Below, in pieces: positions 52,279 to 64,000 of a stretch of 64,000 nt of DNA. Origin of the DNA: Pseudodesulfovibrio sp. S3 (GTDB lineage: Bacteria; Desulfobacterota; Desulfovibrionia; Desulfovibrionales; Desulfovibrionaceae); assembly GCF_004025585.1 (NCBI RefSeq), contig NZ_QTZO01000001.1, forward strand, positions 310,001 to 374,000, given 5' to 3'. Numbering within the stretch: position 1 is the first letter of the stretch; every line of letters begins with the position of its first letter. Under the pieces are notes generated by a model. It did not search any database. It was not told the origin of the DNA and was given only the letters and a program-made list of their open reading frames with translations. Made by a program: the position numbers and the translations under genes.

Positions 52279-53328
52279 ATGTCTTTCATCAGGGAACATT
52301 TCATTAACGGGCACGTGCGGCACGGCCTTAAGGTCGGGCTGGCCAGTGTACTGGCGTATTATTTGTCCGGGTTTGTGGGGCTTCCCTACGCTTATTGGGC
52401 GGTCATCACCACCGTTATCGTCATGCAGATGCACGTGGCGGACTCAATCAATATGTGCCTGTATCGCTTTACCGGCACGGCCATTGGCGCGGTCATAGGC
52501 ATACTGCTCATTCTGATCTTTCCGCCCACGCCCGGCGCCACCATGCTCGGCCTTTTTGTCGGAGCCGGAGTTTGCGCCTATCTGACACGCTACAATGAGC
52601 GATTCCGCATGGCGGCCATCACTGTGGCCATCGTGTTTCTGACCAGTCTGGACGCGGAGAATCGTATCGAGTTCACCCTGTTCAGGGTGGTGGAGATCGG
52701 TGTTGGCGTACTCTGCGCGTTCGTCGTCTCGGTTGTTGTCTTGCCGAGTCGCGCCGGGGCGGTTCTGCGCGGGAAGCTGAGGGATCAGTATGAGGAACTG
52801 GCCACTCACTATACCATACTCATGGACAACTTTCTCAAGCGGCAAAAAAAGACGGACCCGGACCTGTTTTTTGATCTGGCGGTAGAGGCCCAGAAGAATC
52901 GTGAGATGTTTCATAAGGTGTTTGTCACGGAAAGTCGTTTCTTCAGGGACGACGTGAGGTTGCTCTCCCTGCAGGTGACCGTGCTTCAGTCCGTGCTCGA
53001 GCGGCTTCAATCCATGCCCATCCTGTTGAACGACGTGGAGGGTGATGGGTTTGACATTATCATGGCCCCTGAGCTTACCAGATTGGCCAAGGCCACTTCC
53101 GAGGCCTTGCGGGCCATTGGTCAGGGTGTTCCGCACGACACCCACGAGCTGGCTGCGGCTGTGGACGTCATTGAAAACCGTTTCATCGAGCTGCGAAGCC
53201 AGGGGGTGACCGGACGTTTCTCTGCCCGCCGTCTTTTTCAGGTGCTCAGTTTTATCAACACCTCCCAACACCTTGGCGAATACGTTCTCGGCGTGCTCAA
53301 CAAACCGGAGATGGCCCAATTGAAATAG
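52279..53328 (+). CDS. FUSC/aromatic acid exporter-type membrane protein
   Basis: A 349-residue protein with about six N-terminal helices (HGLKVGLASVLAYYLSGFVG, YWAVITTVIVMQ, TGTAIGAVIGILLILIF, and so on to about residue 160) followed by a soluble helical C-terminal domain of about 190 residues. The pattern and the YWAVITTVIVMQ segment match FUSC-type (YccS/AaeB-like) proteins implicated in efflux. Monocistronic, with its own terminator. Confidence 0.8.
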   Translation: MSFIREHFINGHVRHGLKVGLASVLAYYLSGFVGLPYAYWAVITTVIVMQMHVADSINMCLYRFTGTAIGAVIGILLILIFPPTPGATMLGLFVGAGVCAYLTRYNERFRMAAITVAIVFLTSLDAENRIEFTLFRVVEIGVGVLCAFVVSVVVLPSRAGAVLRGKLRDQYEELATHYTILMDNFLKRQKKTDPDLFFDLAVEAQKNREMFHKVFVTESRFFRDDVRLLSLQVTVLQSVLERLQSMPILLNDVEGDGFDIIMAPELTRLAKATSEALRAIGQGVPHDTHELAAAVDVIENRFIELRSQGVTGRFSARRLFQVLSFINTSQHLGEYVLGVLNKPEMAQLK

Positions 53329-53351
53329 GTGGATTGAGCTTTGGTGCACAG

Positions 53352-53389
53352 AGGATTCACGGTGAATTGCCGCGAATCCTTTTTTTTGT
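53352..53389 (+). terminator. terminator after the FUSC-type gene
   Basis: AGGATTC and GAATCCT, with inner CGG/CCG pairs, form a stem followed by eight T. Confidence 0.85.
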
Positions 53390-53572
53390 TCATGGTGTTT
53401 GATTATGAAATTAAGAAATGACTCAATTGTTCCTTTATTTTTATTGGATGAATAAAGATTTACCCTAATCAGGTTGACATGAAGCCATGCCCGTAAGAAA
53501 TAGGAGGGTGAGGGAAGGGCTGTTGGGCAAGTTGAGAGTCATATTTTTTTAATCGAGTGGAGGAGAAATTCG

Positions 53573-54688
53573 ATGGTTCATTCTCGTTTCAGACTATTCC
53601 TGCTGTTATTTCTTTTCAGCACAGTGTTGTTGGTCGGCTCGGTCGCCTCATATGCGTGCACCGGAATGCGCGTCATTGCAAAGGACGGCTCGGTGGTGTG
53701 GGTTCGTTCCATGGAATTCGGCACTTCAACCAAATCCGATATCATGATCGTGCCGCGAGGCATGGCATGGACTTCCTCGGCCCCCGACGGGAAAAAAGGC
53801 ATGCAGTGGACCAATAAATATGCCTTCGTCGGTCCCAACGGATTTGCAATGGAGAGTCCCCTTGAGGGCATGAACGAGAAGGGCCTGTACGTTGGCGGTT
53901 TTTGGATGGCGGCAGGGGAGTCGGAGTATCCCAAGATCAAGCCTGCCGATTATTCCCAGACAATATCCCAGGCTGACTTTGGAGCCTGGCTCCTGGGCAA
54001 TTGTGCCTCGGTGGCTGAAGTGAAGGAAAGGGTCCCCCAATTGAAGCTGACCGGAGTTGAGGTTGAGTTTCTTCATATGTCCCCGCTCGTCCACTGGTCC
54101 GTGGTGGATGCGAGCGGCAAGGCCGTTGTTATCGAGTCCATAGGCGGGGTGATTACGGTTTCGGAAAATCCTGTGGGCGTTTTCACCAATGCCCCGTCGT
54201 TCGGTTGGCATCTGAACCACCTGCGCATGTATATAAATTTGCGTCCGGACAATGTGCAGCCCTTCAAGCTCGGTGATTACAAGATCACGCCGTTGGGGCA
54301 GGGAACGGGGCTGCTCGGGTTGCCCGGCGACCAGACTCCGCCTTCACGGTTTGTGCGGGCTGCTTTCTATGCCAACACTGCGCTTCAACCCGAGGATGCG
54401 GATGGCTCCGTGACTCTGGGCATGAACCTGATCGCCAACTTCTCCATCCCCAAGGGACTGTCCAGCGGGATCGGCGGCGACGGGAAACAGGAATTCGACT
54501 ATACGCAGTGGACCACTGTATACGATTTCAACAGAAAAGCCCTGTACTTCCGGACTTATGATGATCAGGACTACAAGAAGGTCAGCTTTGACAAGCTGCC
54601 GTTGGACGGGAAGAAATTGCTCTTCATCCCCATGTGGAATGTGAAGCCGACGTACGCAGATGTGAGCGGACAGGCAAAGACGCACTAA
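53573..54688 (+). CDS. secreted choloylglycine hydrolase / penicillin V acylase family enzyme
   Basis: A 371-residue N-terminal-nucleophile amidohydrolase (C-N bond, linear amides). A Sec signal ends near SYA, exposing the catalytic Cys29 (ACTGMRV). The conserved Arg is R45 (16 residues after Cys), while the Asp usually three residues later is E48 in RSMEFG, as I recall in Gram-negative members. Other family features: MNEKGLYVGGFW, VIESIGG and VFTNAPSF. The substrate may be an acyl-homoserine lactone, penicillin V-type or bile-salt-like amide. Strong GGAGGAG precedes the start. Confidence 0.86.
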   Translation: MVHSRFRLFLLLFLFSTVLLVGSVASYACTGMRVIAKDGSVVWVRSMEFGTSTKSDIMIVPRGMAWTSSAPDGKKGMQWTNKYAFVGPNGFAMESPLEGMNEKGLYVGGFWMAAGESEYPKIKPADYSQTISQADFGAWLLGNCASVAEVKERVPQLKLTGVEVEFLHMSPLVHWSVVDASGKAVVIESIGGVITVSENPVGVFTNAPSFGWHLNHLRMYINLRPDNVQPFKLGDYKITPLGQGTGLLGLPGDQTPPSRFVRAAFYANTALQPEDADGSVTLGMNLIANFSIPKGLSSGIGGDGKQEFDYTQWTTVYDFNRKALYFRTYDDQDYKKVSFDKLPLDGKKLLFIPMWNVKPTYADVSGQAKTH

Positions 54689-56970: not shown

Positions 56971-57009
56971 GAAAAGAAAAGGGTTTATGGAGTGATTCCA
57001 TAAACCCTT
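56971..57009 (-). terminator. terminator, probably the original one of tRNA-Pro
   Basis: AAGGGTTTATGG and CCATAAACCCTT form a 12-bp stem with a 7-base loop; on the minus strand it is followed by TTCTTTTC. It lies just past the left direct repeat, where the tRNA 3' end would have been before insertion. Confidence 0.65.
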
Positions 57010-57013
57010 GATT

Positions 57014-57064
57014 TATCTGGTCGGGATGAGAGGATTTGAACCTCCGGTCTCTGCGTCCCGAACG
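57014..57064 (-). repeat. left copy of the 51-bp direct repeat (attachment site)
   Basis: Identical over 51 bases to 57961-58011, which covers the 3' 47 bases of the intact tRNA-Pro plus four flanking bases. This copy keeps the T arm and acceptor end of the tRNA but diverges directly after the anticodon loop (CCCGAACG then GGATGG). Confidence 0.85.
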
Positions 57065-57196
57065 GGATGGATTACGTTGTATCCTTTGTAGTCACTGTAT
57101 TTATTTTTGTATGTCACATGAAAAATACCCGTAAAATGGGTCTAAAATGTAACAAGAAATGTGACAGTATCAAGTCGTACTGTTTTGTTCTATTGA

Positions 57197-57715
57197 TTAG
57201 ACTTTTAGCCTTTTTTTTACTGTGGCTCGGTAATCAATGAAGGCTGCTTTGAATGCATCTGCGAGTATGTCGCTTTTGGGCATTACTTCTTGTTCGAACC
57301 TGACCCTTTCTCGATCCCGATCAAAGACCCCCTCCATCGTTGCGGGGTCAATAGACTGATCATCGTTACGGGTGGGTAGTCCCTCTATGGCATAGTAGCT
57401 TAGTAATTCATCGGTTGCTTTCAGTAGCTGCGTTTTTTTGTTCTCGATAATATCAAAAAGGAATTTGTTAGATGCTTTCGGTGCCTCTGAGAGATAGTGA
57501 TAAAAATTATTTCTAGCCTGACCAATATGGTAGCTTGAGCGTGCGCCTCCGTAGATTGCTCTCATAGTATTTTCGTCGGCTATGGCATCAAGCGTATGAA
57601 ATACCCTGATATCATGTTCAGTAGTGAGGTTTTTACTGTCGATATACCGCTTCGACAGGAATCCTAGGCCAAAAGTCAAAATTGGAATTCCTATGTCCTT
57701 AATTAGTTCCCACAT
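57197..57715 (-). CDS. hypothetical membrane-anchored protein carried by the tRNA-Pro element
   Basis: A 172-residue protein of unknown family. It begins with a short hydrophobic segment (DIGIPILTFGLGFLSKRY, about 7-24), followed by a soluble, charged, helix-rich region ending in TVKKRLKV. Codon use is more AT-rich than in the flanking genes. Only a weak ribosome binding site (AAGAGAT) precedes the ATG at 57715. It is the only substantial gene of the element, and thus probable cargo. No function is proposed. Confidence 0.6.
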   Translation of the reverse strand: MWELIKDIGIPILTFGLGFLSKRYIDSKNLTTEHDIRVFHTLDAIADENTMRAIYGGARSSYHIGQARNNFYHYLSEAPKASNKFLFDIIENKKTQLLKATDELLSYYAIEGLPTRNDDQSIDPATMEGVFDRDRERVRFEQEVMPKSDILADAFKAAFIDYRATVKKRLKV

Positions 57716-57801
57716 GGCAATCTCTTGGTACGGGGTTAGGACTTATAGTGGCAAGGGCTGTAGACTGATATTTAAGTATATCTTTTTATCAGAGCAATCA
57801 A

Positions 57802-57831
57802 TGAACGCACGAGGAGCAATCTATGCGTTCA
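57802..57831. repeat. inverted repeat TGAACGCA-N14-TGCGTTCA inside the element
   Basis: Two perfect 8-base arms upstream of the element's gene, in the 249-base gap before the tRNA. It may be a promoter-region operator or recombinase arm site. A 49-codon frame overlaps it but also runs through the terminator and is not counted as a gene. Confidence 0.3.
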
Positions 57832-57920
57832 GAGCGCAAAGCATATCGTTGATATTATGTCAGAATCTTGGCTTTTTTTTGATTTGGCGTTGGAAAAATG
57901 TGACAAATTATGTGATGAAC

Positions 57921-57956
57921 AGAAAAAGGCACTTACGAAAACTTCCGTAAGTGCCT
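57921..57956 (-). terminator. terminator of tRNA-Pro supplied by the element
   Basis: AGGCACTTACG and CGTAAGTGCCT form an 11-bp stem with an 8-base loop; on the minus strand it is followed by TTTTTCT. It lies 9 bases after the tRNA 3' end. Confidence 0.8.
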
Positions 57957-57960
57957 GTAA

Positions 57961-58011
57961 TATCTGGTCGGGATGAGAGGATTTGAACCTCCGGTCTCTG
58001 CGTCCCGAACG
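57961..58011 (-). repeat. right copy of the 51-bp direct repeat (inside intact tRNA-Pro)
   Basis: Exact match to 57014-57064. It covers the tRNA from the anticodon stem-loop to the CCA end plus 4 bases beyond. Confidence 0.85.
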
Positions 58012-58041
58012 CAGCGCTCTACCAGACTGAGCCACATCCCG
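57965..58041 (-). tRNA. tRNA-Pro (anticodon CGG)
   Basis: A complete 77-base cloverleaf on the minus strand with CCA encoded. Acceptor CGGGATG pairs with CATCCCG; the anticodon stem CTGCG/CGCAG holds loop TTCGGGA, anticodon CGG, reading CCG proline codons; the T arm contains GGTTCAAATCC. It is the integration site of the element to its left. Confidence 0.95.
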
Positions 58042-59373: not shown

Positions 59374-61311
59374 ATGGCGGATTGCACCGAGTATCTGGCG
59401 CTGCTGGGTAGCGACAACAAGGAAGTTGTGCGGGAGAGCGCGTTTCGAGCCGGCGAGGATAATTGTGTGGAGGCGGTACCCAAGCTGGCTGAATTGCTCA
59501 AGACCAACCATCTGGGCATTCAGGAAGCGGTTGACAGTTCCTTGCGCAAGATCGGCGGCAAGGAGACCGTGCAGGCCGTCATTCCGCTCCTGCGTTCCGA
59601 TGAGGCTCCCGTGCGTAACCTGTCCATGGATATCCTGCGTGAGGTTGGGAATCAGGACATGGCCTCCCTGATACATCTGACTCAGGATGAAGACACGGAT
59701 ATCCGCATTTTTGTCGCCGACATACTTGGTTCCACCAATAGCATCCTGGCGGTCAAGCCCCTGTGTGACGCCCTGCTCAAGGATCCGGAGGTCAACGTCC
59801 GATATCAAGCCGCCGTCAGTCTGGGCGAATTGGGCATGGAAGACGCCACCCCATGTCTGAACAAGGCCATCGATGACGAGGAATGGGTCCAGTATTCCGT
59901 CATCGAGGCATTGACCAAGATCGGCCATGCCAGTTCCGTGGATGCGTTGGTCAAGGCCCTGGATGGAGCCTCGGATTTGGTGGCGTCCATGATTATCGAT
60001 TCACTGGGGGAAATGGGCAACGTCAAGGCCGTGACCATGTTGCTCAAACGTATGTCCGACTCCCCGACTGCACTGCGCAACAAGATCGCCAAGGCCATAG
60101 TCAAGATTCTTGGCGGCAAGTCCCTGACCCTGTTGAGCGACGACGAGCGCGAGCGGTTCAAGCTCTATCTGCTGGTTGCTCTTCAGGACGAGGATGTGGA
60201 GATTCAGGACGCTGCCATTCAGGGACTGGCTTATCTGGGCGGCGAAGAGGCTTCGAGAGGTATTCTGCAGATTGCCGGTGCCCTGGATCAGGATCGGGAT
60301 CAGGAGCGGCTGCAGTCGATCATAACCTTCCTGGCGCAGATAGGTCTGACCGAGGCCCTCAAGGTCGGCTTGCTCGGCGAGAATCAGGATGTTGCAAGGG
60401 TCACCGTGCAGACGCTTTCCCAGATCAGTCCCAAGGGGGTTGAGGAGAACAGGAAGGTCTGCGATATCCTCATGGGTGCTTTTTGGAAGGCCGGGTTGCC
60501 TGTGCAGCGGCAGATAGTCAGTGTTGTGGCTGCTCATGGGTTCGAGCAGGCCAAGGACTTTTTTGTCAAAATATTGAATGAACACGACGACGGCACCGTG
60601 TTGAAGAGCGCTGTCTATCTTTTGGGAGAACAGCTTCGGCTGGCAGAAGTTGCTGGCAGGATTTTTCCGCTTTTGGAGCACCCATACGATGACGTTAAGG
60701 AAGCTGCCCTTGATGCCTGCATTGCCATCGGCGGGGCTGAGGTCATGGCACGTTTTCGTGATATGTTCGACAGCCCGGACCCCATATCCCGGCTCATGTC
60801 CACCTATGCCCTCGGCAAGCTCGCCCCCGTGGAGAATCTGGACATACTGAAACAGGCGGTCGAGGATGAGTTGTCGGATATTCGCAAGGTTGCAGTGGAG
60901 GCCCTGGCGTCTGTTGAAGGGCATGACGATATCTGGCGGCCCCTGGTGCTGCATCGTCTTTCCGACGAGAGCAAGGATGTGCGCCTGACGGTCATTGAGA
61001 TCATGGGACAGCATTATGACGACGATATGGTTCCGCATCTTATTGATGCCTTGAGCGACGATGATGACTGGGTCAAAATCAGGGCCATGGATGCCTTGGG
61101 AGAACACTCCACGCCTCAGGCTGTGTCGCTTATGATTGATATGCTGAATAATTCCAACCGGTTTGTCGTTATGAAGGCCATTGAGGCCTTGGGCAATATC
61201 GGTGGTGGAGAGGCCTTTGCGGCGCTGTTGGAAGTCACCAACAGCGATGAGTATGAGTTGGTGAGCGCGGCCGAGGAAGCTATCGCCAAGATACAGGACT
61301 CACAGGAGTAG
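59374..61311 (+). CDS. HEAT-repeat protein in the chemosensory cluster
   Basis: A 645-residue protein built almost wholly of HEAT repeats of about 31 residues, recognisable by repeated patterns such as VRYQAAVSLGELG, VQYSVIEALTKIG, VKIRAMDALGEH and VVMKAIEALGNIGG. Such solenoids bind other proteins. There is no signal peptide or membrane segment. ATG 59374 with GGGAGGG 9 bases upstream is chosen; ATG 59344 is possible. It lies between cheB (47 bases) and cheR (9 bases), so it is probably a scaffold or adaptor of this signalling system (inference). Confidence 0.85.
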   Translation: MADCTEYLALLGSDNKEVVRESAFRAGEDNCVEAVPKLAELLKTNHLGIQEAVDSSLRKIGGKETVQAVIPLLRSDEAPVRNLSMDILREVGNQDMASLIHLTQDEDTDIRIFVADILGSTNSILAVKPLCDALLKDPEVNVRYQAAVSLGELGMEDATPCLNKAIDDEEWVQYSVIEALTKIGHASSVDALVKALDGASDLVASMIIDSLGEMGNVKAVTMLLKRMSDSPTALRNKIAKAIVKILGGKSLTLLSDDERERFKLYLLVALQDEDVEIQDAAIQGLAYLGGEEASRGILQIAGALDQDRDQERLQSIITFLAQIGLTEALKVGLLGENQDVARVTVQTLSQISPKGVEENRKVCDILMGAFWKAGLPVQRQIVSVVAAHGFEQAKDFFVKILNEHDDGTVLKSAVYLLGEQLRLAEVAGRIFPLLEHPYDDVKEAALDACIAIGGAEVMARFRDMFDSPDPISRLMSTYALGKLAPVENLDILKQAVEDELSDIRKVAVEALASVEGHDDIWRPLVLHRLSDESKDVRLTVIEIMGQHYDDDMVPHLIDALSDDDDWVKIRAMDALGEHSTPQAVSLMIDMLNNSNRFVVMKAIEALGNIGGGEAFAALLEVTNSDEYELVSAAEEAIAKIQDSQE

Positions 61312-61320
61312 GCGCTCTTA

Positions 61321-62196
61321 ATGTCATCCCTTTTTTCCAAAACCATAACCCTTGGCAAAGATCTGAGGATAACGGATCTGGAGTTTTCCCATCTGCGGGA
61401 CTTCATCTATGCAGAATGTGGAATCTATATTGCGGATAATCGCAAGTATCTGTTGGAAAATCGTCTTGGGAATCGACTCAAGAAACTGAATCTGAAAAAT
61501 TTTGACGAGTATTACAACCTGCTTCGGTTCGATGTGGGCAAGGCTCAGGAGATGAAGAAGTTGTTCGAGGTCATCACGACCAATGAAACCAGCTTCTATC
61601 GCAATCCGCCGCAGCTCAGTGTTTTTCAGAATGAGGTGTTGACCGAAGTGTTCGCCTTCTGTCGCAAGCAGGGACGGAAGTTGCGCATCTGGTCTGCCGG
61701 ATGTTCAACGGGCGAAGAACCGTACACCATTTCCATGATCATTCATGAGATGCTCAAGGCCGAGGTCGCTTCGTGGGATATTCGGATTACGGCCAACGAT
61801 CTGTCCGATCGAGTGTTGGAGTCCGCCCGAAAGGGGATTTATAATGACTATACTCTCAGGACGACTCCTCCAGATATCGTAGCGCGGTATTTTGTCATGG
61901 ACAATGGACAGAACAAGATCAAGCAGGAAGTCAAAAGGCTGGTGAGTTTTGGGCAGATTAATCTGAGGGATCGAGTACAGGTAAAACGGGTAGAGCGATC
62001 GCAGGTGATTTTTTGCCGAAATGTCATAATTTATTTTGATGATGAGATGAAGAAGCGGGTTATCAACGCATTTTACGACAATTTGCTGCCGGGCGGTTAC
62101 CTGATTATCGGGCATTCCGAATCGTTGCATAACATCACGCGTGCGTTCAAACCCATTCACTATCCTGGCGCTATAATTTACAAGAAGGAAGAGTAG
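61321..62196 (+). CDS. cheR: chemotaxis protein methyltransferase CheR
   Basis: A 291-residue S-adenosylmethionine-dependent methyltransferase acting on receptor glutamates. N-terminal helical domain (about 17-90), then TNETSFYRNP, the SAM-binding WSAGCSTGEEPYTISM, NDLS and the IFCRNVIIYFD motif. It opposes CheB in adaptation. It begins 9 bases after the HEAT-repeat gene. Confidence 0.95.
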   Translation: MSSLFSKTITLGKDLRITDLEFSHLRDFIYAECGIYIADNRKYLLENRLGNRLKKLNLKNFDEYYNLLRFDVGKAQEMKKLFEVITTNETSFYRNPPQLSVFQNEVLTEVFAFCRKQGRKLRIWSAGCSTGEEPYTISMIIHEMLKAEVASWDIRITANDLSDRVLESARKGIYNDYTLRTTPPDIVARYFVMDNGQNKIKQEVKRLVSFGQINLRDRVQVKRVERSQVIFCRNVIIYFDDEMKKRVINAFYDNLLPGGYLIIGHSESLHNITRAFKPIHYPGAIIYKKEE

Positions 62197-62255
62197 GGTA
62201 TGCACTTAATCGGATTTGATAAAGTGACCCGGATTATGTTATTCAAGGGGGAAGT

Positions 62256-62624
62256 ATGCCTAAACATATTCTGATTGTGGACGATTCGAAGACTGTCCGG
62301 AACCTTGTGGCCTTCATCATGAAAAAGGAAGGGTTCAAGGTGACGACCGCTGAAGACGGTTTGGACGGCCTGGAAAAGCTGTACAGTCTCGGTGCAGTCG
62401 ATTTGATCGTTTCAGATGTCAATATGCCTCGCATGGACGGCTTGACTTTTATTAAAACTGTCAGGGAACAAGCGGCGTATCGGGATATTCCTATCGTGGT
62501 TCTTTCTACCGAGGGCCAGGATAAGGATGTTCAGACCGGGCTTACAGTGGGCGCGAACCTCTACATGGTAAAACCTGCTCAACCAGAGAAATTGGTGAGA
62601 AACGTCAAAATGTTGCTGGGGTAA
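62256..62624 (+). CDS. cheY: CheY-like response regulator
   Basis: A 122-residue receiver domain with D9-D10, acceptor D54 (IVSDVNMPRMDG), VVLSTEGQ and the lysine in MVKPAQP. It is of the single-domain CheY type found next to CheA. AAGGGGGAAG precedes the ATG. In this cluster it is probably phosphorylated by the CheA encoded next. Confidence 0.92.
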   Translation: MPKHILIVDDSKTVRNLVAFIMKKEGFKVTTAEDGLDGLEKLYSLGAVDLIVSDVNMPRMDGLTFIKTVREQAAYRDIPIVVLSTEGQDKDVQTGLTVGANLYMVKPAQPEKLVRNVKMLLG

Positions 62625-62711
62625 CGCCTTATATAATCGGTGGAAATCCAACCGACGCGGCGGGAAACGGCTTTTGAATCATAACGCTGTCCCGCAGCCA
62701 GAGGGAACTTG

Positions 62712-64000
62712 ATGAACCAGGACTTTCTCGATCCGGAAATCTTATCCGACTTTTTTGTCGAAGCGAAAGAGCATTTGGAGACCATCGAGCCCAACTTGTT
62801 GGAGCTTGAGAAGAGCCCTGACAACCTTGGTCTTCTCAATGAAATCTTCAGGCCCATGCATTCCCTGAAAGGGGCATCTGGCTTTCTTGGGCTGAACAAG
62901 ATCAATGGCTTGGCGCATAAGGCAGAAAACATACTTGATGAGTTGCGCCAGGGGTCCATGCGCGTCACTGCGGCTATCATGGATCTGATCCTTTCGGCCA
63001 CTGACGCCCTGCGGACCATGGTTGACAATCTGGAGACCAGCGGTGTCGAGGGTCATGTCGACACTGCGCCCATTATTGCTCAGATCGAGCTGGCCCTTGC
63101 AGGCCAGTTGCCTGACGTAGAAGATGCTCCGCCGGTTGTGGAGGCCGCTTCAGCCCCTGTGTCTGCGCCGGTTGTTGAACCGGTCGCTATGGTCGAGCCA
63201 GCGCACAAGGAACCGGATCCTGTTCTTGAGGAGGCGGTTTCCGTTGAAGAGCCTGTGACCGAAGCGTTCAATCCGCAACCGGATCCCGATTTCGACGCCA
63301 CCCCGTATGGTCTGACCACGGTCGGGGAGGGGCATCTGGCAGATTTTCTTGAGGAAGCCCAGGAGATCATTGAAAATTTGAACCGTTGTCTGTTGGCCCT
63401 GGAAGGCGATCATGACGGCAATGATGAATTGATTAATGACACATTCAGGTATTTCCATAACCTGAAGGGCAATAGCGGAATCATCGGCTTCAAGGAACTC
63501 AATTCTCTGACCCATGAGGCTGAGACGCTGCTCAACAAGGTCCGAAAGGGCGAGATAGCTTCGAGTCAGGGTTTGATAGACCTTTTGCTGGCCGCTGTGG
63601 ATTTAATCGAGGCATTGGTTTCCAAAGTGGATGTGGAGACCAGCAAGATTGAGCCTCTGGATACCAGTATCATGGTGCAGGTATTGCAACGGGTAACCGA
63701 GGACGGCAATGTGGACGCTGTCAATGGTATTGTCAGCGATGCCAAGAACGGGGAGGCCAGGGTGGAATCTCAGGCTCCAGTCCAGGCCGAGTCCCAGGCT
63801 TCCATTCCAGAAATTCAGGCAGCCGATACCGTTGTCGCTGAACCTGAAGTCGCTGCGAGCGCCGAGTATGATTCCGAGGATGTCGCTCTGTTCGTGCAGA
63901 CCATCAATCAGCAGTTTGAGGCTGTCGTGGTGGCCTTTGACATGCTCAAGGAGGATTCCGGGCAGAAGGATATCATCGACGGGTTGTTCAGAACGTTTCA
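62712..64000 (+). CDS. cheA: chemotaxis histidine kinase CheA (N-terminal part, runs off the window)
   Basis: The visible 429 residues are phosphotransfer (Hpt) domains and linkers; kinase and coupling domains would follow beyond the window edge. Hpt 1 has the phosphoacceptor H50 in RPMHSLKGASGFLGL, Hpt 2 has H249 in YFHNLKGNSGIIGF, and a further region starting near residue 389 (DVALFVQTINQQFEAVVVAF) looks like the start of another Hpt-like domain. Pro/Glu/Ala-rich linkers separate them. The ATG at 62712 has GAGGGAAC upstream. CheA receives receptor signals and phosphorylates CheY and CheB. Confidence 0.9.
   Translation, partial: MNQDFLDPEILSDFFVEAKEHLETIEPNLLELEKSPDNLGLLNEIFRPMHSLKGASGFLGLNKINGLAHKAENILDELRQGSMRVTAAIMDLILSATDALRTMVDNLETSGVEGHVDTAPIIAQIELALAGQLPDVEDAPPVVEAASAPVSAPVVEPVAMVEPAHKEPDPVLEEAVSVEEPVTEAFNPQPDPDFDATPYGLTTVGEGHLADFLEEAQEIIENLNRCLLALEGDHDGNDELINDTFRYFHNLKGNSGIIGFKELNSLTHEAETLLNKVRKGEIASSQGLIDLLLAAVDLIEALVSKVDVETSKIEPLDTSIMVQVLQRVTEDGNVDAVNGIVSDAKNGEARVESQAPVQAESQASIPEIQAADTVVAEPEVAASAEYDSEDVALFVQTINQQFEAVVVAFDMLKEDSGQKDIIDGLFRTF

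Follow-up and report, generated by a model that had tools for sequence, protein, structure and literature searches.

A 947-bp single-gene unit with TGTCACA ends at tRNA-Pro(CGG) of Pseudodesulfovibrio sp. S3, a probable non-autonomous mobile element

The window, that is, the whole 64,000-nucleotide stretch of the Pseudodesulfovibrio sp. S3 genome (G000) analyzed here, contains a 947-bp AT-rich segment at the tRNA-Pro(CGG) gene that, as judged by sequence comparison, is an inserted mobile unit rather than what decay has left of an island. The unit is probably a non-autonomous, trans-mobilized element of about 0.95 kb that belongs to a small family of single-gene tRNA units ending in TGTCACA words. 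The window unit, its spread and a sister unit in the genome G002 are well supported; a further sister in G020 is less so.

A unit inserted in tRNA-Pro(CGG)

The original prediction described a one-kilobase element in tRNA-Pro bounded by perfect 51-bp direct repeats, and this description holds. The target gene (57965..58041, minus strand), identified as tRNA-Pro(CGG) by both ARAGORN and Rfam (RF00005), is restored by the unit. The tRNA-proximal copy of the core repeat (57961..58011, minus strand) is identical to the distal copy (57014..57064, minus strand), which lies 947 bp away and represents the displaced 3' half of the tRNA; the repeat begins at tRNA position 31, adjoining the anticodon loop, and takes in the encoded CCA and 4 bp more. 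A separate terminator-like hairpin lies beyond each copy, namely one supplied by the unit to the restored tRNA (57927..57956, minus strand) and the displaced original terminator (56979..57009, minus strand). The predicted local drop in GC content is real as well (0.41-0.44 over the unit vs 0.51-0.58 in the adjoining coding DNA, measured in 500-bp windows) and is not the sole one, values of 0.44-0.50 being found also near 53000-53750 and 61000-62750.

The unit carries one gene and no integrase, as had been proposed: the sole long open reading frame encodes a 172-aa protein (57197..57715, minus strand), and all other frames of 25 or more codons are too short to encode an integrase. No packaging gene was detected in the unit, and its DNA has zero matches in phage and plasmid records. 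The 172-aa protein could not be assigned to a family in Pfam, PADLOC, NCBIfam or the PDB, its matches in PHROGs are at chance level (E >= 0.1), and no homologs were found in phage, plasmid or viral records. Its N-terminal stretch is hydrophobic by eye, and the AlphaFold model is helical and of low confidence (pLDDT 44). The protein is present in 2 of 98 genomes, those of the window and of G033, and a survey of 288 genomes of the family adds only one weak partial match, in G294. The gene is under purifying selection, the ratio dN/dS between the two copies being about 0.065 (dN 0.0075, dS 0.115). We infer that it may be a defence or exclusion gene. The upstream part of the unit (57716..57926, no strand assigned) is non-coding.

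The genomic context of tRNA-Pro was compared across 30 loci of the genus, the one in the window included. The cheB gene is located upstream of the tRNA in all 29 other loci, as it is in the window, and speA was detected nearby in only one of these (G013), within a flank of about 1.5 kb, or less on short contigs. The G013 locus, with the order cheB, tRNA-Pro, about 0.3 kb, speA, provides the empty version of the site that the original prediction called for. Of the 18 genomes for which longer stretches were compared, three showed speA, namely G013, G007 (about 3.8 kb away) and G027 (about 10.8 kb away). A half-tRNA copy is present on the contig of the tRNA-Pro gene, at a distance of 0.5 to 84 kb, in at least 16 of 36 genomes of the genus (the window genome included; several are drafts). 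The tRNA-Pro(CGG) site is an insertion hotspot.

The contents of this hotspot are varied. In G020 (L046, L047), a single tRNA-Pro is followed by a four-segment tandem array in which, among the matches listed, only the first segment has an integrase. In G005 (L043:7891-8506), a tRNA-Leu(TAA) gene is located in a 0.54-kb segment that extends from tRNA-Pro to a partial half copy and whose tandem GTCCCC words are confined to the proximal side. The purT gene is enclosed by half-tRNA-Pro copies in each of two species (L050:3094-8182 in G028 and L048:13342-16188 in G025), in segments with mismatched ends; the G028 stretch also contains a DUF1611 and alanine-racemase-like pair between such copies.

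The copy of the unit in a second species

In G033, a unit with identical boundaries is present at the same tRNA-Pro. The two units are 92.7% identical in DNA over 1046 aligned positions (cores included), and the 172-aa ORF is 97.1% identical, compared with 75.5% for the flanking speA (dN 0.137, dS 1.32). Given that the dS of the ORF is about one-tenth that of speA, the split between the two copies is far more recent than that of the flanking genes. This difference makes it barely credible that an ancestral arrangement was simply retained in two species; the presence of the protein in only two of the 288 family genomes (apart from the weak match in G294) and the empty site in G013 argue against it as well. 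An ancestral arrangement in relatives was the outcome that the original prediction had named as its refutation; one further species does have the arrangement, but not as an ancestral state.

Just beyond the distal repeat, the identity between the two genomes drops to 0.35-0.43 when calculated per 100 columns. Together with the empty site in G013 and the arm-like sites at both ends, this drop supports the predicted site-specific integration. Recent transfer by homologous recombination in flanking DNA, through transformation or generalized transduction and without a site-specific step, could account for any single event; it is nevertheless very unlikely here because the drop at the distal repeat and the 75.5% identity of speA leave no flanking tract on the speA side, the side to which the comparison applies, the cheB side being separated by a 51-kb island.

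A compact unit with both ends, found in two species at a divergence far below that of the flank, must have moved once it was already small, unless the same deletion occurred twice. Passage of the 947-bp unit between species in its small form therefore appears to be a better fit to the sequences than a single decay.

The unit in G033 sits on the speA side of the 51-kb tRNA-Pro island (G033:C5:36222-87256), which encodes an integrase, ketoacyl synthases, an MMPL protein, an amine oxidase, a radical SAM protein and a caspase-WD40 protein. The domains listed after the integrase were identified with Pfam in 10 proteins; a search of 10 proteins against PHROGs, with 7 proteins common to both sets, yielded no structural family, the matches being to a DnaB-like helicase, a transposase and a family of unknown function, so that we classify this neighbor as an island and not as a prophage. 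The adjacency of the two raises the alternative that the unit was a passenger at the end of a bigger tandem array, excised and transferred as one composite, with the partner subsequently lost in the window genome. Co-transfer in tandem is known for cis-mobilizable elements, or CIMEs (PMC5704250), and a composite origin would overlap with trans-mobilization of the unit, so that the two do not exclude each other. We nevertheless regard it as doubtful, if a little less so than the other alternatives, because the neighbor ends in a different word, TTATCC, which would give the composite mixed outer ends, and because the window unit stands alone. By virtue of the same end word, the 51-kb island is not an obvious mobilizer of the unit.

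End words, sister units and the search for a helper

Many units at this tRNA share a common layout, in which a short word is present as two direct copies about 12 bp apart just outside the tRNA terminator and is repeated at the far end. In the window unit, the tRNA-proximal end has an intact TGTCACA (57899..57905, minus strand), a likely arm-type site, and a second site (57911..57917, minus strand) that reads CATCACA in the window and TGTCACA in both G033 and G002. At the distal end, there is a direct TGTCACA (57160..57166, minus strand; TGTCACA in G033 and CGTCACA in G002), a second direct site (57148..57154, minus strand) that reads TGTTACA in the window and TGTCACA in the other two, and a site in the inverted orientation (57112..57118, plus strand). 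Thus, the word is found at both ends along with the inverted distal copy typical of the family, with two of the five sites mutated, one proximal and one distal, whereas all five are intact in G033; the window copy may be stuck in place.

A test for an exact 6-letter word common to both ends was applied to 26 units at tRNA-Pro, the set not including units in G003, G009 and G018, whose ends are split between contigs or fall on truncated ones. Ten of the 12 integrase-bearing units pass this test, and in the two that fail (G034 s2 and G032 s1) the words are degenerate by eye. Of the 14 other units, only the window unit, its copy in G033 and the G002 unit pass, the window unit via TCACAT rather than the full TGTCACA. 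In a control set of 650 mismatched end pairs, 65 score 2 or more, a count that may include pairs drawn from within one word family. The words differ among islands at this one tRNA (TTATCC, GGTTAC, GTAATA, TTGCTA, CGGCAC and TGTCAC). TTGCTA is the word of five of the 10 integrase-bearing islands that pass, and no inverted copy is present in these five. The distal end of the TGTCACA units, where direct copies are accompanied by a single inverted one, has the arrangement of five islands with integrases of a clade represented in G033, G022, G010, G017 and G024, whose members are 38-95% identical to the integrase of G033.

In viral contigs, the tandem TGTCACA word was found at nine loci, about five of them distinct, and a tyrosine integrase gene lies 100-250 bp from it in five of the nine (three of the five distinct ones); in L187, the tandem word falls within a reading frame and looks like a chance occurrence. 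The distal pattern has an integrase within 600 bp at none of its 44 loci in viral contigs, even with a wider profile, and, for this reason, is weak evidence when taken alone. From the layout and the proximal association, the TGTCACA words of the window unit appear to be integrase arm sites.

The same ends accompany other cargo. In G002, a 2.5-kb TGTCACA unit has as its sole long gene a 621-aa reverse transcriptase that, by profile matches, is an Ec67-like RT-Toprim retron reverse transcriptase of a known class (PADLOC RT-Toprim_I-C, 1.1e-136; NCBIfam retron_Ec67_fus, 392 bits, under the cutoff of 450). A search of this locus (L042) against Rfam for an upstream msr-msd RNA matched only the tRNA. 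The G002 and window units are 86% identical over 64 bp adjoining the proximal arm, so that this end of the upstream non-coding part is partly common to the two. Two tandem GGTCACAT copies (L042:2975-2995) lie beyond the distal core of this G002 unit and may represent the left end of a further unit, now lost. In G020, the tandem array is closed by an eroded 1.4-kb unit that has TGTCACA at each end and a single gene, for whose 307-aa product no family was found above chance in three libraries. This unit was assigned to the family by eye, and it looks like a fossil because it has a single proximal copy, fails the word test (score 0) and has eroded cores. No integrase was detected among the listed ORFs of the four TGTCACA units (those of the window, G033, G002 and G020).

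Several other segments were considered as sisters and rejected because their ends are mismatched: G025 s2, G028 s1 and s2, G032 s2, G034 s1 and G035 s2, as well as G020 s2 and s3, G005 and G024 s2. The rejected segments are either integrase-less or undecided in this respect, the larger ones having been judged from the matches listed and a local integrase profile; this profile missed the L186 integrase, which was found by Pfam.

The original prediction left two options, the decayed end of an island or a very small satellite mobilized in trans. The former would correspond to a classical CIME, a larger TGTCACA island that lost its integrase along with most of its genes and became a fossil moving, at most, in cis. 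Such decay does seem to occur at this tRNA, given the deletion-like segments with mismatched ends (G025 s2, G028 s1 and s2, G034 s1 and G035 s2), and both the two mutated sites in the window and the erosion of the G020 sister would fit it, as would the precedent of the Dehalococcoides ssrA islands, 15 of 31 of which have no integration module (PMC3146451). We consider it unlikely all the same, because a compact two-ended unit is shared by two species at a divergence far below that of the flank and because three different cargoes accompany the TGTCACA ends. The G033 copy and the sister units favor the satellite option; its mobilization in trans is what we infer from them.

An integrase-bearing element with TGTCACA ends at tRNA-Pro was not found in family genomes, named genomes or viral contigs. 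The proximal pattern, with one mismatch allowed, matched two of 288 family genomes (G002 and G033, both units integrase-less). The distal pattern, GTCACATT-gap-CATGTGACA, matched three of 285, namely the G000, G002 and G020 units, all at tRNA-Pro. The arm or arm-plus-core pattern matched three of 288, namely the G000 and G002 units and an unrelated match in G105. Of the four known units, the distal pattern misses that of G033 by one base, and the proximal pattern misses those of G000 and G020, so a helper of diverged sequence could escape these searches. Among named genomes, 64 stretches were recovered, and a filter for an adjacent GGTTC left four; in two of these (L093 and L119), by eye, an intact tRNA-Pro seems to follow a chance match. 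The window genome itself has at least 13 tyrosine recombinase matches, and its integrases resemble the candidate clade only weakly (best score 119 bits vs 678 for G033). Relatives of this clade were found at five loci in viral contigs, along with 99 weak matches in phage records.

In the mechanism that we propose, a tyrosine integrase encoded elsewhere would recognize the TGTCACA sites at both ends of the unit, presumably acting in trans, and would excise the non-autonomous unit of about 0.95 kb as a circle. The circle would then insert in the anticodon-loop region of a tRNA-Pro(CGG) gene, the 3' half and terminator supplied by the unit restoring the tRNA. Lacking any evident means of passing from cell to cell, the circle might, by analogy, be carried by a phage or another helper; there is a precedent in a larger, integrase-bearing island carried by a jumbo phage (PMC12595487).

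Relationship to known elements and implications

In its formal definition, a CIME is flanked by attL and attR, lacks integration and transfer genes, and occurs in tandem with integrase-bearing elements; CIMEs are described as decay products moved in cis (PMC5704250). The 947-bp unit retains attL and attR, has no integration or transfer genes and thus falls under this definition, but it differs from the CIMEs described in that source in having a single gene, a size below 1 kb and cognate words at both ends, in occurring in an identical small form in two species, and in being solitary in the window. The closest precedent are the Dehalococcoides ssrA islands, which are likewise arranged in tandem at one tmRNA gene and of which nearly half are recombinase-less; unlike the unit, these islands rely on a serine recombinase, and the 15 recombinase-less ones carry 38 rdhA and other genes (PMC3146451). 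No arm-site family of single-gene units is described in the available portion of that report.

MITEs and CALINs, discussed as 'hitchers' (PMC11389934), resemble the unit in that they retain recognition sites and use an enzyme supplied in trans. However, MITEs use transposases and carry no gene, and CALIN cassettes use attC sites and the integron integrase, whereas the unit has one gene and would depend on a presumed tRNA-directed tyrosine integrase. The I55 element is a partial parallel, with insertion in tmRNA, direct repeats, defence cargo and transfer with a jumbo-phage helper, but elements of this type encode their own integrase, and the smallest is put at less than 20 kb (PMC12595487). 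PICMI and P4-like satellites can be grouped with I55 as tRNA or tmRNA islands that carry defence genes. In the openly accessible literature covered, we found no description of single-gene, integrase-less tRNA units. The published description of Islander states that candidates are filtered for an integrase gene (PMC4383910), and accordingly integrase-less units fall outside its reach; mapping tools with such a requirement would miss them.

More tentatively, it is possible by analogy that the TGTCACA units form a stable lineage of single-gene, attP-ended 'tRNA cassettes' with an arm-site identity of their own, which swap a single cargo gene, often one for phage defence, and parasitize the integrases of visiting phages and islands, so that no autonomous member would be needed in the host lineage.

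The differing end words of islands at one tRNA provide a natural set for mapping the arm specificity of integrases. If the proposed account is correct, tRNA-directed tyrosine integrases would have minimal parasites of their own, like those of transposases and integron integrases, and such parasites could spread single genes, anti-phage retrons included, between species.
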